From the NCBI GenBank assembly GCA_029265615.1, contig JAJUIB010000001.1, positions 186,001 through 250,000 on the forward strand: a stretch of DNA of 64,000 nt, in the 5' to 3' direction. Origin of the DNA: Spirochaetota bacterium. Lineage in GTDB: Bacteria; Spirochaetota; Spirochaetia; Treponematales; Rectinemataceae. The notes beneath the pieces are model-generated. The model saw nothing but the letters and a program-made list of their open reading frames with translations. It made no database searches and was not told the origin of the DNA. A program made the position numbers and the translations under genes. This document shows positions 23,315 to 29,017 of this stretch, piece by piece. Numbering within the stretch: the stretch's first letter is position 1; the number at the start of each line of letters is the position of its first letter.

Positions 23315-26300
23315 TTAAAAACTCACAACAAGGCCGAGGCTTACAAGGAGGTCGAAGGTGAGCGTCCCCGTCTTGCCGTCATATTTTTGGCTACATGCGG
23401 CCTTGGCCTTCAGCGTCAGTTTCTGCGGTACGGTGAGTTTCCCCTCGGCGGATTCTTCAAGCGAAAAGCTCAATGGCGGCGCGGATGCATCGCTTTGCTT
23501 TGAGGATAGTTCGCCCGAAAAACCATAGGTGCTTCGCGCCTGAGGATGTTCATGCGCAAGGCTTTCAAGATAGTGCGAAAAAAGACTTTTTTTGCCACGG
23601 TCGCCTTCAGACTGCGGTGTCCCGTACGGCGCGCCTCCTGCAGATCCGGGCGCAAGACCGAGCGCGAGGCGATAGAGATCAAGAAGCCAGTGTCGCTCGC
23701 GGAGAAAGGAAAGGCTCGCCGAAAAGCGTTCAGACCACTCGCGGAGCGCCGGCTCCGAGGCAAGGGAGAAGCGATGCTCGATGCCAAGGCTGTCGCGATT
23801 GTCACGCGCATACAAGGTCGCAATTTGCTGATGGGTGAGCTTAGCCCGCAGAGCAGACTCGCCGTCCACCTGCGCGACTTTCCCCTGGAGCGCGCCGAAA
23901 TACTCGTCGCTCTCGAAAGGAAGCCCAAGTGGGCGAACACCAAAGGCACCAAAGAGGTTAAGCGCGGCGGTCTTAAGGCCCCACTCCCAGGTCAAACTCG
24001 AACTTAGGCTGTCGCCCGAGCGGACGAGCTCGCGACGCAGGGCGAGGGAGAACGAAGAGGGCAGAAAAAGGTCCCACACGAACGAACCGTAGTGCCGGGA
24101 GAGCGCAAGGCCGAGTTCGGGCGTGTATGATACTTCAGGCGCATCGAGCGCAGTGGCTGATGCCGCTGCGCTTTCGCGAAAAAGCTCGTAACTACGAGCA
24201 TCCCAGAGCTCAAGGAATGGATAACTCTCCCACAGGGGCCGCGCCGAAAAAAGATCTTTAAGCGCGGATTCGGCTCCGTAAAGGAGGTCAAGGCCCGCAC
24301 CGGCGCGCTTTTCTTTCCAGCGACGCTCATAGTAGGGAGTAAGGCCGAAGTCGCCTGGAAGGCGGAGCGGCAGGGCGAGCCTGAGCCGCGCCTCATCGCG
24401 GCGCAGGCCGTCCGAAGCGCCCGGCTCGCCGACGTAGCTTGCCTGCGCAAGAGCGAATTGACGATCGGCGCCCGCTGAGCATGAAAGTCCGAACGAGACC
24501 TCGCGCCGCGTCGCTTCGTCCTCGGCTACGGGGATAAGGAAGGGGAAAGCCGCGATCCAGGCGGCAAAGTAATCCTTAGGCAGAACGGGGGGAAGCGAAG
24601 GCCGTGCGCTCGTTGCGGCCTTGAGGGTGGCGACAACCGCGGAGCCCGCGGCGATGGTGCCATTCCAGTCCTGCCTGAGGAGTCCGGACTCCCCTTCGAC
24701 CGTCGAGGGCGTAAAGGTCGTGGTGCTCTTTGCTTCGAGCGAAAGAGCCGCGGGAAGACGTAGCCCGACTGCATCCTCCCGCCCAAAGGACCCTTCTTCG
24801 GGGTTGTAATCGAAGCGATCGGCAAGGCTCAAGGGGCCAAGCGGCAACTTGAGCTCATGACCGCCCTGAAGTGCGACTTCATTTTCGTTCGCACGACCCC
24901 GGGCGCGGGCAACGAGGTCGAGCATCCCGAGCCGCGTCCCGAACACAATGCCACACGCGGCGTACGGTGCGTCGTGGGAGGCCGCCGTCGCATCGGCCTT
25001 GAGGGCAAGCCCCGAGAGGAGGTGAATTTCGTCACGGCCGAGTTTGAGCGCCGGGCCAAGCGCCCATGCATCGCGCTCGTAGGAAAGGGTCCCTTGGCCA
25101 AGAAGGGCTGCGCGGCCGCTTGACTCCTCAAGGCTGATTTCGTCGATCCAGAGCTCGGAATTCGCATCGAGCCCCGCCGCGTCGAGGACGAGGCGCGAGG
25201 CAGACGTGCAAGAAAGATCGACCGTCGTTTCGGCGCCATCAATCTTTATAAGGGCGCCGCCTTCGGTTGCCTGATAGTACAGCGTACTGTCCCCTCGGCC
25301 GTAGCGGAGCACAAAGCGCCGCCAGGCCGAATTAAGCGCCTCACGCGGAACCTTCATAGACAAAGCAGAAGATCTCCCGCCATCATCGATCGTGAGGCTG
25401 AGGGAGGTAGGCGCGTTTCCTTTTACACGCGCATAGAACGAGACCTCCTTGAGTTTAACAAAGGGCGGCGCCTCGATGAGCTTGGCGAGCCGAAGGTCAC
25501 CCCCTTGAGTTACAGCGATTTTGAGCGCCTTTTGGACGCTTCCATCGCGGTGGGTTGCGTTCACAAGGCGGGGAAAGACGAGGGCGAGTGCGTCCTCCTC
25601 AAGCTCGGTAACCGAAGCCGTGGCCGGCTGGGCGAGCTCCGTAACAAGGCTGAACGAGGTCGCATAGCGCGAACCCGACTCCATGCCCTCGATCCTGTAG
25701 CGGCCCGAGGCCTCCTCGGTGGTCCAGCTCCCCGCAAGCGCAAGCGAGGAACGGAAGTCCCCCTCGGCGTCGCGCGCTCCTAGAGTGAGCGTGAGGGTGC
25801 CCGGATTGGCAAGGCCATCAGATGCATAACTTTGTCCGGGAAGGCTCCAGCGAAGGCCGAGGGCGGCCCATGCCGAACGGTCGGCGCCAAAATTGAACGA
25901 TCCACCAAGCCCTGCGGCAAGGCTCCCCGCGCGACGCTCGGCGCTCTCGCGCAGGTAGGAAACCCTGATCTCCTCCTGGAGGCCGGGCGGGTTTGCGAGC
26001 GTGAGAATCCCCGCGGTCTTGTCAACCGTGAAGGCATAGTCGGGAACACCATTCCGATACACCTCGACAGAGCCTTCGACGAGATTTTGATCGAGGGTGA
26101 TCTCTTTAGCCGCGCTCAAGCGCCGCACAACGATCTCGTGCGTAAGGAGGGGGGCCGGCCCTGTGGGATACTTTTCGGAAAAATCAGTCGTATAAAGCGT
26201 AGGCATGTCCTCGACAAAGGGCTGCCTCCCGCTCGTCGCGTCGTCATCGGTCTTTCGCACCTCGATAAAGCCCGCAGGATCAAAACGCGCCTCGTACCCT

Positions 26301-27340
26301 TCGTCGCGAAGGCCCGAGGCGCGATTTCGGACGAAGACCTCGTCGGCCGCGGTGAGGACGAGGGGATAGCGTGAAAGAAGTTCCGCTCCACTACCGAAAA
26401 CCTCGGGGTCGTAGAGGAGGCATGTGGCGCGCTCGCCGATTTGTTTCGTACCTTCGACGTTCTCATACCAGGCGTAGAGCTTCGTCTCTGCGGCGCGAGC
26501 AAGACCGATAAAGCCGGTAGCCACGCTATAAGCAAATTCACCCGCCTCGAGCCTGCGGTACTTCGTGTCTCCCGACACGAGCGTTCCCACAGGGCTTTCG
26601 GCATAGAGCTCGAGATTTTTAATGGTTGCTGAGAGCTTGAACCAACGCCCGCGCTGAAAGGAGTTCGCGGCGATGATGGTTTCCGTCACTTCGGCGCGGC
26701 CGACAAAACGCTTTTCGACCCGGTCGGCCTGGTCGTAACGTAACATCGCATGACCCGAGAAGGCGCCAGAGCCTGCCCGGGCGGCGATGCCGAAGGAGCG
26801 CGAACTACCCGGGCCCAAAGAAAGATAGGGATAGGAGGGAAAGGAGATGCCATCATTGCCAAGACGGACTTCTTCGAGCACCTCGCCTTGCGCACCGCGA
26901 TAGCCGAGCGCGTAGCGCGCTTCGGCTAAATTTTCGGTGACGCGCGCCTCGACAAAGAGCTTCTTAAAAAGGAGGAAAGAGAGAAAGAGGTCGGGGCGCT
27001 GGGTAAAGAGGAGGGGCTGCGCGCCGGAAAGGGCAAGGCCGCCTGAGGGGGAGATGACGACGCCGAGATTCCCCGTAGCGCTTGCCTCCCAGGCGCCTGA
27101 GACGATGAGCTCCGCCTCCTCGCCCTTTTTCGCTTCGTCGAGGTCGAGCGAAAAGAGGCTCTTGGGCGCCTCAGCCTCGAGGACCGAGACAGAGGTCCCG
27201 GCGGCGGGTGCGCGAAGGCTCTCGGCGCTGAGTCCCTCGCCGAGGAACGCGCATACAAGGCTTATGAGGCCGAAGGCGGGGTATATCCGTAGCCCTCGGC
27301 GAAGGGCCGCACGGCCAGGTCCCATACGTGTCTTTACCAT
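23315..27340 (-). CDS. Very large outer-membrane or surface protein, function unknown
   Basis: 1341 aa. A basic N-terminus and hydrophobic stretch lead to a likely signal-peptidase site after GEGLSA (about residue 39). The rest is beta-rich, with many alternating hydrophobic strands (YELFRESAAAS, WDLFLPSSFSLAL, TWEWGLKTAALNLFGAF) and a C-terminal phenylalanine (SLGLVVSF), the signature of beta-barrels inserted by BamA. The N-terminal part (EVLEEVRLGNDGISFPSY, then SRSFGIAARA) loosely resembles the SprA-type giant translocon proteins of Bacteroidetes; this is only a by-eye impression. Its start has no Shine-Dalgarno sequence; a TATAAT lies 20 nt upstream. It is divergent from the voltage-sensor gene. 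Confidence 0.8.
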   Translation of the reverse strand: MVKTRMGPGRAALRRGLRIYPAFGLISLVCAFLGEGLSAESLRAPAAGTSVSVLEAEAPKSLFSLDLDEAKKGEEAELIVSGAWEASATGNLGVVISPSGGLALSGAQPLLFTQRPDLFLSFLLFKKLFVEARVTENLAEARYALGYRGAQGEVLEEVRLGNDGISFPSYPYLSLGPGSSRSFGIAARAGSGAFSGHAMLRYDQADRVEKRFVGRAEVTETIIAANSFQRGRWFKLSATIKNLELYAESPVGTLVSGDTKYRRLEAGEFAYSVATGFIGLARAAETKLYAWYENVEGTKQIGERATCLLYDPEVFGSGAELLSRYPLVLTAADEVFVRNRASGLRDEGYEARFDPAGFIEVRKTDDDATSGRQPFVEDMPTLYTTDFSEKYPTGPAPLLTHEIVVRRLSAAKEITLDQNLVEGSVEVYRNGVPDYAFTVDKTAGILTLANPPGLQEEIRVSYLRESAERRAGSLAAGLGGSFNFGADRSAWAALGLRWSLPGQSYASDGLANPGTLTLTLGARDAEGDFRSSLALAGSWTTEEASGRYRIEGMESGSRYATSFSLVTELAQPATASVTELEEDALALVFPRLVNATHRDGSVQKALKIAVTQGGDLRLAKLIEAPPFVKLKEVSFYARVKGNAPTSLSLTIDDGGRSSALSMKVPREALNSAWRRFVLRYGRGDSTLYYQATEGGALIKIDGAETTVDLSCTSASRLVLDAAGLDANSELWIDEISLEESSGRAALLGQGTLSYERDAWALGPALKLGRDEIHLLSGLALKADATAASHDAPYAACGIVFGTRLGMLDLVARARGRANENEVALQGGHELKLPLGPLSLADRFDYNPEEGSFGREDAVGLRLPAALSLEAKSTTTFTPSTVEGESGLLRQDWNGTIAAGSAVVATLKAATSARPSLPPVLPKDYFAAWIAAFPFLIPVAEDEATRREVSFGLSCSAGADRQFALAQASYVGEPGASDGLRRDEARLRLALPLRLPGDFGLTPYYERRWKEKRAGAGLDLLYGAESALKDLFSARPLWESYPFLELWDARSYELFRESAAASATALDAPEVSYTPELGLALSRHYGSFVWDLFLPSSFSLALRRELVRSGDSLSSSLTWEWGLKTAALNLFGAFGVRPLGLPFESDEYFGALQGKVAQVDGESALRAKLTHQQIATLYARDNRDSLGIEHRFSLASEPALREWSERFSASLSFLRERHWLLDLYRLALGLAPGSAGGAPYGTPQSEGDRGKKSLFSHYLESLAHEHPQARSTYGFSGELSSKQSDASAPPLSFSLEESAEGKLTVPQKLTLKAKAACSQKYDGKTGTLTFDLLVSLGLVVSF

Positions 27341-27401: not shown

Positions 27402-28727
27402 ATGACGGAACCGAGACGCGAAACAAGCATTCGCCTCATGCGCATCGCGCTCGACATAGTCGTCGTCGCCGCGGTGCTCCTCGTCGTGATCGAGGAGGCG
27501 AGCGCCGCCTTTGGTGCGACCTGGGGTCTGCGACGCACTCTTTCGCTCGCAAGCGTTGTCTTTGACCTCGTTTTTTCGATCGAGTTCGCGCTGCGTTTCG
27601 CCCTCGCCGCCTATGAGAGCGACGCGCGGTACTACCTCATTGACCGCGGCGGATGGATCGATGGGCTGTCCTCACTCCCCCTCCTCATCTTTGTCTCGGG
27701 CCCCTTCCTCTTCGCCGCTTTAAGCGGCACCTTTCATCCCCTGGCCGCGACGGGCGCGCTCGGAACACTCCGCGTGCTCCGGAGTCTGCGCCTCCTTCGC
27801 TCGCTCCGCCTGCTTCGTTTCTTCCGTAGGCGGGAAGGTGCCGACCAAAGCGTCGCCGACCAAAGTGTCGCCCTTTCCCGCCATCTTTCCAAGGCCGCCG
27901 GGCTTGCCCTGGCCGCAAGTCTTGCGGTTGCCCTCGGCGTCGAGGCCGCCACTGCCCTGGGGCTCTGGCCTGACGCGCGCGCCGCGCTTGAAGGAAAGCG
28001 TCGCCAGACTATGCACAGCCTTCTTGCCGCGCGCGGCGCGGATGGCGCTGAGGCCGCAGCGCGCGTTGATGCAGACTTACTTCTCGTCCGCGACAACGGC
28101 CGGGTCGTCTACACGCGGCATTCGGCGGAGGAGTTCCGCCGCCGCTTCGGTCCCGACGACATCGGCTATCTTGCCGACGCGCGCGGCGTCGAAGCGTTTT
28201 TCTCGATCGCGGCCGAAAACCGCGCAGGTGCCGCCGCCGCGCTCGCCTCAGCCCTCGCCGCGCTCGCCGCCTTCCTCGCGGTGGTGCTCGGCTACGGCCC
28301 GTATTTCGCACAAGGCGTCGTGCGGCCCCTTCGGGCATCGCTCGACCTCGTGCACGGCGCACGTGAGAACCTCTGCCTTGTCCCTCCGCCCGGCAGCGAG
28401 GATGAGGAGCCCTACATCCTCGCCCTCGCCCTTGCCGAACGCCTTGCACCACCAGCGGAAAGGATGGCATTCGATGTGAATGGCGACGGCATCGCTATGC
28501 AGGTCGATTCGCTCGCCACAAACCCTTCCGCTCGCGTCCTTGCGGAAGATGTAGCGGAGCATCCGGCGGGTGCGTCAGCGGCATCGCCCGCGGACGCGCC
28601 AACGCCGCGGGGATCCCTCCTCAAAGCCGCACTACGCGCGCGTGGCGGCTTCGATGCCGCGGCGCCAACGGGGAGGGATGAGCTTGCCGGCCTCCTCGGC
28701 AGTACGCAGGAGCGTGGCCAGGGATGA
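27402..28727 (+). CDS. Voltage-sensor-like membrane protein with HAMP-like region and no pore
   Basis: 441 aa. Four N-terminal helices match an ion-channel voltage sensor: S1 about 14-31, S2 about 48-70 (VFSIEFALRF), S3 about 84-105 (WIDGLSSLP) and S4 about 120-144. In S4 Arg124, 127, 130, 133, 136, 139 and 142 lie at exact three-residue spacing. A fifth helix (165-188) is followed by about 85 extracytoplasmic residues and a last helix (276-303) leading to VVRPLRASLDLVHGAREN, which resembles a HAMP start. No potassium, sodium or calcium selectivity-filter sequence is visible. The cytoplasmic tail has DVNGDGIAMQVD, a calcium-loop-like motif (358-369). Family not recognised beyond the voltage sensor. 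It overlaps the next gene by 4 bp. Confidence 0.8.
   Translation: MTEPRRETSIRLMRIALDIVVVAAVLLVVIEEASAAFGATWGLRRTLSLASVVFDLVFSIEFALRFALAAYESDARYYLIDRGGWIDGLSSLPLLIFVSGPFLFAALSGTFHPLAATGALGTLRVLRSLRLLRSLRLLRFFRRREGADQSVADQSVALSRHLSKAAGLALAASLAVALGVEAATALGLWPDARAALEGKRRQTMHSLLAARGADGAEAAARVDADLLLVRDNGRVVYTRHSAEEFRRRFGPDDIGYLADARGVEAFFSIAAENRAGAAAALASALAALAAFLAVVLGYGPYFAQGVVRPLRASLDLVHGARENLCLVPPPGSEDEEPYILALALAERLAPPAERMAFDVNGDGIAMQVDSLATNPSARVLAEDVAEHPAGASAASPADAPTPRGSLLKAALRARGGFDAAAPTGRDELAGLLGSTQERGQG
27840..27869 (+). repeat. 15-bp in-frame duplication after S4
   Basis: GCCGACCAAAGCGTC (27840-27854) is repeated with one change at 27855-27869. It encodes ADQSV twice (residues 147-156) in the S4-S5 linker of the voltage-sensor gene. 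Confidence 0.8.
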
Positions 28728-29017
28728 TGGTCGTCTCGATGATCCAGATCGTCATCGAAATCCCGGAGGCCTCCTCGCTCAAGGACAAACGCCGGGTTGT
28801 CAGCATGACGAAGGAGCGGCTTAGGACGAAGTTCCGCCTTTCCTGCGCGGAAGTGGATCTTCTCGATTCGCTCCGCTTCGCGCATCTTGGCTGCGCCCTT
28901 GTGTCGAATTCGAAAGAATACGGGGAAACAGTCATGCAGAAAGCGCTTTCCTTCGTCGAGGACGGGCTCGCGCTCAAGGTCCACGACGCGCAGATACATT
29001 CCGAGCTCTATGATTGA
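28724..29017 (+). CDS. DUF503 family protein
   Basis: 97-aa protein matching the DUF503 pattern: a short beta strand, then IPEASSLKDKRRVVSMTKERL, then a FRLSCAEVDLLDS strand. A late GCALVSNSKEYGETVMQKALSFVED helix completes a ferredoxin-like fold. Members are widespread, often near rbfA or ribosome-maturation genes, with no settled function. The start overlaps the preceding stop (ATGA), so it belongs to the voltage-sensor operon. Confidence 0.85.
   Translation: MMVVSMIQIVIEIPEASSLKDKRRVVSMTKERLRTKFRLSCAEVDLLDSLRFAHLGCALVSNSKEYGETVMQKALSFVEDGLALKVHDAQIHSELYD

Follow-up and report, generated by a model that had tools for sequence, protein, structure and literature searches.

A divergent member of a family of pore-less voltage-sensor proteins in Spirochaetota

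The locus and the encoded protein

The window is a stretch of 64,000 nucleotides from a Spirochaetota bacterium of the family Rectinemataceae, and all positions below refer to it. On the forward strand, at 27402-28727, a single open reading frame represents a real gene for a protein of 441 amino acids, here called P0001, which is identified as a pore-less voltage-sensor protein by the frame itself, by the S1-S4 part of Pfam Ion_trans and by a family profile. Its stop codon is overlapped by a DUF503 gene (28724-29017, forward strand, assigned by Pfam), and divergently from it, on the reverse strand at 23315-27340, lies c2, a gene for a surface-type protein of 1341 amino acids without Pfam assignment. 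Both are conserved neighbours in the family, and c2 keeps its position across the class. The DUF503 protein of the window is 41-57% identical to those at the relatives' loci, and c2 matches the gene adjoining the relatives' c1-VSD genes (c1 is described below) with BLASTP E-values down to 8e-48. Since the same DUF503 and the same large gene flank P0001, which lies between them as in many members of the family, the locus is orthologous to the loci of the relatives.

The voltage sensor of P0001 is canonical, as the preliminary description of this DNA had proposed. Pfam Ion_trans covers S1-S4 only (profile positions 32-114 of 241, 41.6 bits), and no Pfam domain was found beyond S1-S4. The AlphaFold2 model, based on 21 sequences in the alignment, has confident helices for S1 (residues 4-36, 27411-27509) with E31 and E32, S2 (residues 41-71, 27522-27614) with D55, F58, E61 and R65, S3 (residues 84-108, 27651-27725) with D87, and S4 (residues 124-147, 27771-27842), all on the forward strand. 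The charge-transfer centre is intact, with F58 and E61 in S2 and D87 in S3. The sequence of S4 is RVLRSLRLLRSLRLLRFFR, with arginine at positions 124, 127, 130, 133, 136, 139 and 142, that is, the seven residues at i+3 spacing that had been noted earlier, and with further basic residues at 143 and 144. Such a run was not obtained in any of 20,000 shuffles of P0001 (expectation 4e-5). Four transmembrane helices, S4 charges at i+3 and the charge-transfer centre place the protein in the voltage-sensor superfamily.

On the same strand, a long TM5 helix (residues 149-185, 27846-27956) leads to an extracytoplasmic alpha/beta domain at approximately residues 186-269 (27957-28208), which replaces the pore loop, and then to TM6 (about residues 270-301, 28209-28304), part of a predicted helix at 270-319. 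About 85 extracytoplasmic residues followed by a last helix were thus correctly described before. The domain is predicted to be folded with a pLDDT of about 90, and when modelled alone with 37 sequences it has a pLDDT of 88 and the order helix-helix-strand-strand-helix-strand-strand. It carries the conserved signature RxSaeEFrrRFGPdDigY, common to relatives and P0001 (RYSDAEFSRRFGPSDY in the relative L049 and RHSAEEFRRRFGPDDIGY in P0001). No K+ or Na+ selectivity-filter motif was found in P0001 and no pore helix is present between TM5 and TM6 in the predicted structures, in agreement with the earlier statement that the S5-S6 part has no filter. Foldseek searches against PDB, which had been proposed as a check, gave nothing significant for the whole model or for the extracytoplasmic domain (best E-values 0.36 and 0.95), and the PDB sequence search gave no match. 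Sensor domains of PhoQ and KinD are among the sub-threshold Foldseek matches of the domain and carry no weight as evidence.

The genome of the window has one other Ion_trans-type match, on contig 22 (L067:1306-2598, forward strand). This protein consists of a pore domain, in which the filter reads TVGYGD, and a C-terminal part similar to TrkA/RCK domains, and is apparently a true K+ channel without a sensor of the P0001 type.

A family of relatives across Spirochaetota

Sequence comparisons assign P0001 with high confidence, both in architecture and in descent, to a previously undescribed family of pore-less voltage-sensor proteins spanning Spirochaetota, of which it is a divergent member. The first direct searches found orthologues in two taxonomic families of the order: L002/P0002 and L003 belong to the same family as P0001, L004 and L010-L020 to a second one. 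The larger set was reached by way of a HAMP-bearing relative, L021, and subsequent profile searches. Among 395 genomes drawn from the class, 146 have a match at E<=0.001; dozens of these matches are full-length, about 370-410 amino acids, and mostly there is one per genome. The common layout is S1-S4, TM5, the alpha/beta domain and TM6, followed by a HAMP-like domain, so that homologues with the suggested fusion of voltage sensor and HAMP-like domain do exist. A family profile built without P0001 gives it 142 bits over residues 15-310, and 37 bits on the part after S4 alone (residues 151-441). P0001 and its HAMP-less relatives form a clade of their own in the tree (100/99), on a long branch, and the node that unites this clade with the HAMP-bearing family has weak support (75/56). 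Viral contigs held no relative, and a scan of genome contigs found only three relatives, all already known from the other searches. A bacterial protein combining a voltage sensor with HAMP or HD-GYP was not found in the open-access literature searched.

Conservation was counted in 41 distinct aligned members. Position 31 in S1 is acidic in 41/41 and position 32 in 40/41; D55, F58, E61 and D87 are identical in all 41, and R65 in 40, with lysine in the remaining one. In S4, positions 124 and 127 are lysine or arginine in 41/41, and the arginines at 130, 133, 136 and 139 are identical in every member. A predicted pore helix and filter, or a lack of homologues with conserved S4 arginines, had been named as arguments against the preliminary description; neither refutes it, since the models show no pore helix or filter and such homologues exist. 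The invariant gating charges make it likely that the family senses voltage.

In the relatives TM6 is continued by a block of conserved sequence, SDPxxVMxRGxxExxYNLxVxIPxxYxxDEIxxLAxxYNxxYLPxKxR. The C-terminal part of the family profile also matched long frames in the genomes searched, and six of these (471-990 amino acids) were found on scanning to be histidine kinases or chemoreceptors with Pfam HAMP. The block is HAMP-like because it coincides with the Pfam HAMP of such proteins, an overlap that is stated for the inspected alignments: Pfam HAMP covers 309-359 in L118 against a family-profile match at 276-355, and 178-229 in L123, where the family match extends to 229. Relatives score 70-109 bits with a HAMP model made from the family.

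The gene c1 lies directly upstream (<50 bp or overlapping) in 37 of the 41 full-length family genes. Its product is an uncharacterised protein of about 307-343 amino acids without Pfam match. Examples are L082:5974-6909 on the reverse strand and L069:4322-5281 on the forward strand, and the C-terminal signature of c1 reads KxDRGAetpDKSWFsvARkn...DELYxIA. At many family loci the next gene downstream is DUF503, and upstream there is a large surface-type gene in divergent orientation. One distant relative, L055, joins Ion_trans (64 bits), a HAMP-like stretch (13.9 bits, which is below the cut-off) and an HD domain of the HD-GYP type (88 bits). This is a single case from a draft assembly, and the nine genomes of G462's class contained no further HD-GYP fusion. 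As its small class offers no other instance, L055 is an illustration, and not proof, that a sensor of this kind can drive an enzyme.

A second pore-less Ion_trans group (L032, L033, L035 and L039-L043), monophyletic in the tree, consists of a voltage sensor, an extracytoplasmic domain, a last helix, an 'FAKDMS...LIIDS' block and a tail, and a different gene of 306-316 amino acids is found upstream in L032, L033 and L035. A divergent member with some of the S4 charges gone (L126:1206-2249, reverse strand) comes from a genome of about 1.2 Mb that looks Borrelia-like; it adjoins a c1 relative and lies close to a CheY-type gene.

HAMP, c1 and the tail in the window lineage

P0001 is a derived member in which HAMP is undetectable and c1 is missing. 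A HAMP-like start after the last helix had been described, but neither Pfam (E<=10) nor the HAMP model built from the relatives, run at full sensitivity, finds a HAMP in P0001, and the latter finds nothing in L002 or L003 either. What is left of that claim is an AS1-like vestige: residues 302-320 (FAQGVVRPLRASLDLVHGA, 28305-28361, forward strand) align to helix 1 of the relatives' HAMP and to no other part of it. The c1 gene is absent from the whole genome of the window and from G003, G015, G030, G045 and G063, so that no genome tested in the HAMP-less branch contains it, and it is present in four genomes with the full-length form (G060, G610, G440 and G553). This shared loss of HAMP and c1 gives the strongest indication at hand that they act jointly; it is a correlation, and the losses possibly go back to a single event in the tree.

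The close orthologues show erosion of the sensor. Two or so S4 charges are lost in P0002 and L003, and S4 is down to about three arginines in the second family of the order. In the orthologues of the sister family (L004, L010, L011, L012, L013, L014, L016, L018 and L020) most of the S4 charges are gone, as is the S3 aspartate, but the fold, the locus and the C-terminal motif (G.EELaGiLGKR) are retained. Elsewhere in the family of the window, no orthologues upstream of DUF503 were found beyond P0001, L002 and L003, in a motif search that failed on many loci. P0001 may have entered the same course of decay, or it may be a retained sensor with changed output.

Most of the tail from residue 352 is disordered (pLDDT <50). 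It includes a single EF-loop-like string, DVNGDGIAMQVD (residues 358-369, 28473-28508, forward strand), which the preliminary description had read as a possible calcium input. The string itself is present, but its DVNGDG pattern is unique to P0001, being absent from all 41 members of the family in the alignment, it has a pLDDT of about 40, and it is one loop and not the paired, conserved loops of EF-hands. As the pattern is unique and lies in a disordered tail, a calcium input has no support and was rejected, and the string probably arose by chance.

The C-terminal motif GRDELAGLLG (residues 424-433, 28671-28700, forward strand) is the counterpart of the acidic and hydrophobic DLxLDD-hydrophobic-xDLL tail motif of the family (LxLDD-hydrophobic-xDLL in the relatives). 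The pattern, which was written post hoc from the tails, matches 31 of the 42 tails, where shuffled sequences would give 2.4. Because the motif is kept even without HAMP and c1, it probably serves something other than c1, or something additional to it. As a lead only, there is a resemblance between the family motif, of which LSLSDIEDLL in L062 is an example, and the N-terminus with which FliM binds CheY; in the window genome itself FliM begins MTEVLSQDEIDQLL.

Interpretation and comparison with known systems

A voltage sensor that drives a signalling output instead of a pore, as was first suggested for P0001, is an interpretation well supported at the level of the family by the HAMP-like domain, c1 and the HD-GYP case, whereas in P0001 itself HAMP is eroded and c1 is missing. 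In the family, S1-S4 would read the membrane potential and would be coupled, by way of TM5, the small extracytoplasmic sensor domain and TM6, to a HAMP-like switch in the cytoplasm, and not to an S5-S6 pore. This switch would most likely address the upstream c1 product, a binder of the C-terminal motif, or both. The sequences themselves establish the architecture, the conserved gating charges, the kinship of the relatives' block with HAMP, the linkage to c1 and the synteny; we infer a movement of S4 with voltage, its transfer to HAMP and c1 as the receiver, and signalling through HAMP and c1 is plausible. In the lineage of the window, c1 has been lost and HAMP has eroded, but the C-terminal motif and the voltage sensor persist, and the sensor may have been rewired to a HAMP-independent output or may be in early decay.

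It is probable that P0001 is a divergent orthologue within this family of pore-less voltage-sensor receptors, built on a sensor acting on a HAMP-like switch, with rewiring or early decay in the present lineage. Several findings stand against this: P0001 has no detectable HAMP or c1, the loss of S4 charges in close orthologues looks like decay, the long-branch clade of P0001 is weakly joined, and the HD-GYP case is single and distantly related. Whether P0001 itself still signals is uncertain. A more specific and more tentative reading, which we think has somewhat less than an even chance, is that the family constitutes a spirochaete membrane-potential receptor with c1 as partner and the C-terminal motif as docking site, and that P0001, uncoupled from HAMP and c1, signals otherwise.

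The lost HAMP and partner might instead mean that P0001 is a decaying remnant that no longer signals and whose S4 arginines are leftovers. A related branch loses HAMP and then S4 charges, the gene is absent altogether from most genomes of the window's family, and a scan of other genomes of that family, which failed at many loci, detected no such frame upstream of DUF503. However, neutral loss would strike the charges as readily as HAMP, yet all six family-conserved S4 positions together with R142, F58, E61 and D87 are intact, the extracytoplasmic domain still shares 66% identity with its counterpart in the nearest relative, the frame is intact and the C-terminal motif is kept. Decay of this kind is rather unlikely.

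Two further alternatives let ions pass. A pore-less S1-S4 protein whose S1 is acidic at its outer end could conduct protons, or cations, through the sensor in the manner of Hv1, the remainder being a regulatory appendage. The S4 of P0001 does not have the RxWRxxR signature of Hv1, and the HAMP-like domain, the partner gene and the receptor-type extracytoplasmic domain are foreign to Hv1, which makes this improbable. It is more improbable still that TM5 and TM6 line a tetrameric pore in which the alpha/beta domain replaces the filter. Pfam Ion_trans does reach TM5 and TM6 in some relatives (for example profile positions 3-221 of 241 in L049, with an insert), but the filter motif is absent, the place of the pore helix is taken by a folded domain, some 85 residues long and confidently predicted as alpha/beta, and the HAMP-like continuation is typical of dimeric receptors.

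Research on bacteria now treats the membrane potential as a signal, and a classical S1-S4 reader feeding a receptor-type output and not a pore was not found in the open-access literature covered here. If the interpretation of the family as a voltage receptor is true, this widespread, mostly single-copy family with invariant charges and a linked gene would offer a voltage receptor of bacteria that is open to direct tests, and the lineage of the window would be a natural experiment on the loss of HAMP and partner.

The voltage-gated cation channels of the Ion_trans type, such as NavAb, share S1-S4, the S2 phenylalanine and glutamate, the S3 aspartate and the S4 charges with P0001, which unlike them has a folded sensor-like domain between TM5 and TM6 and no pore helix or filter. 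Hv1 is likewise a voltage sensor without pore domain and has acidic S1 residues, but P0001 differs in S4 and in its additional TM5-sensor-TM6 module. The voltage-sensing phosphatases (Ci-VSP) resemble the family in that a pore-less S1-S4 controls something besides an ion pore. Ci-VSP has a PTEN-like enzyme and lacks TM5, TM6 and an extracytoplasmic domain, whereas the family has a receptor-type module with two transmembrane helices, HAMP in the relatives and no phosphatase; Pfam found no PTEN-like catalytic domain in P0001. HD-GYP phosphodiesterases are represented by L055, where the voltage-sensor/HAMP module is fused to HD-GYP, while P0001 has no enzymatic domain. The sensor modules of histidine kinases and chemoreceptors (transmembrane helix, extracytoplasmic sensor, transmembrane helix, HAMP) have the same layout as TM5-alpha/beta-TM6-HAMP in the relatives, whose profile cross-matches the HAMP of both. 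P0001 departs from such modules in having no detectable HAMP, and the family as a whole differs from kinases and chemoreceptors in that it has no kinase or methyl-accepting domain and carries a four-helix voltage sensor in front.
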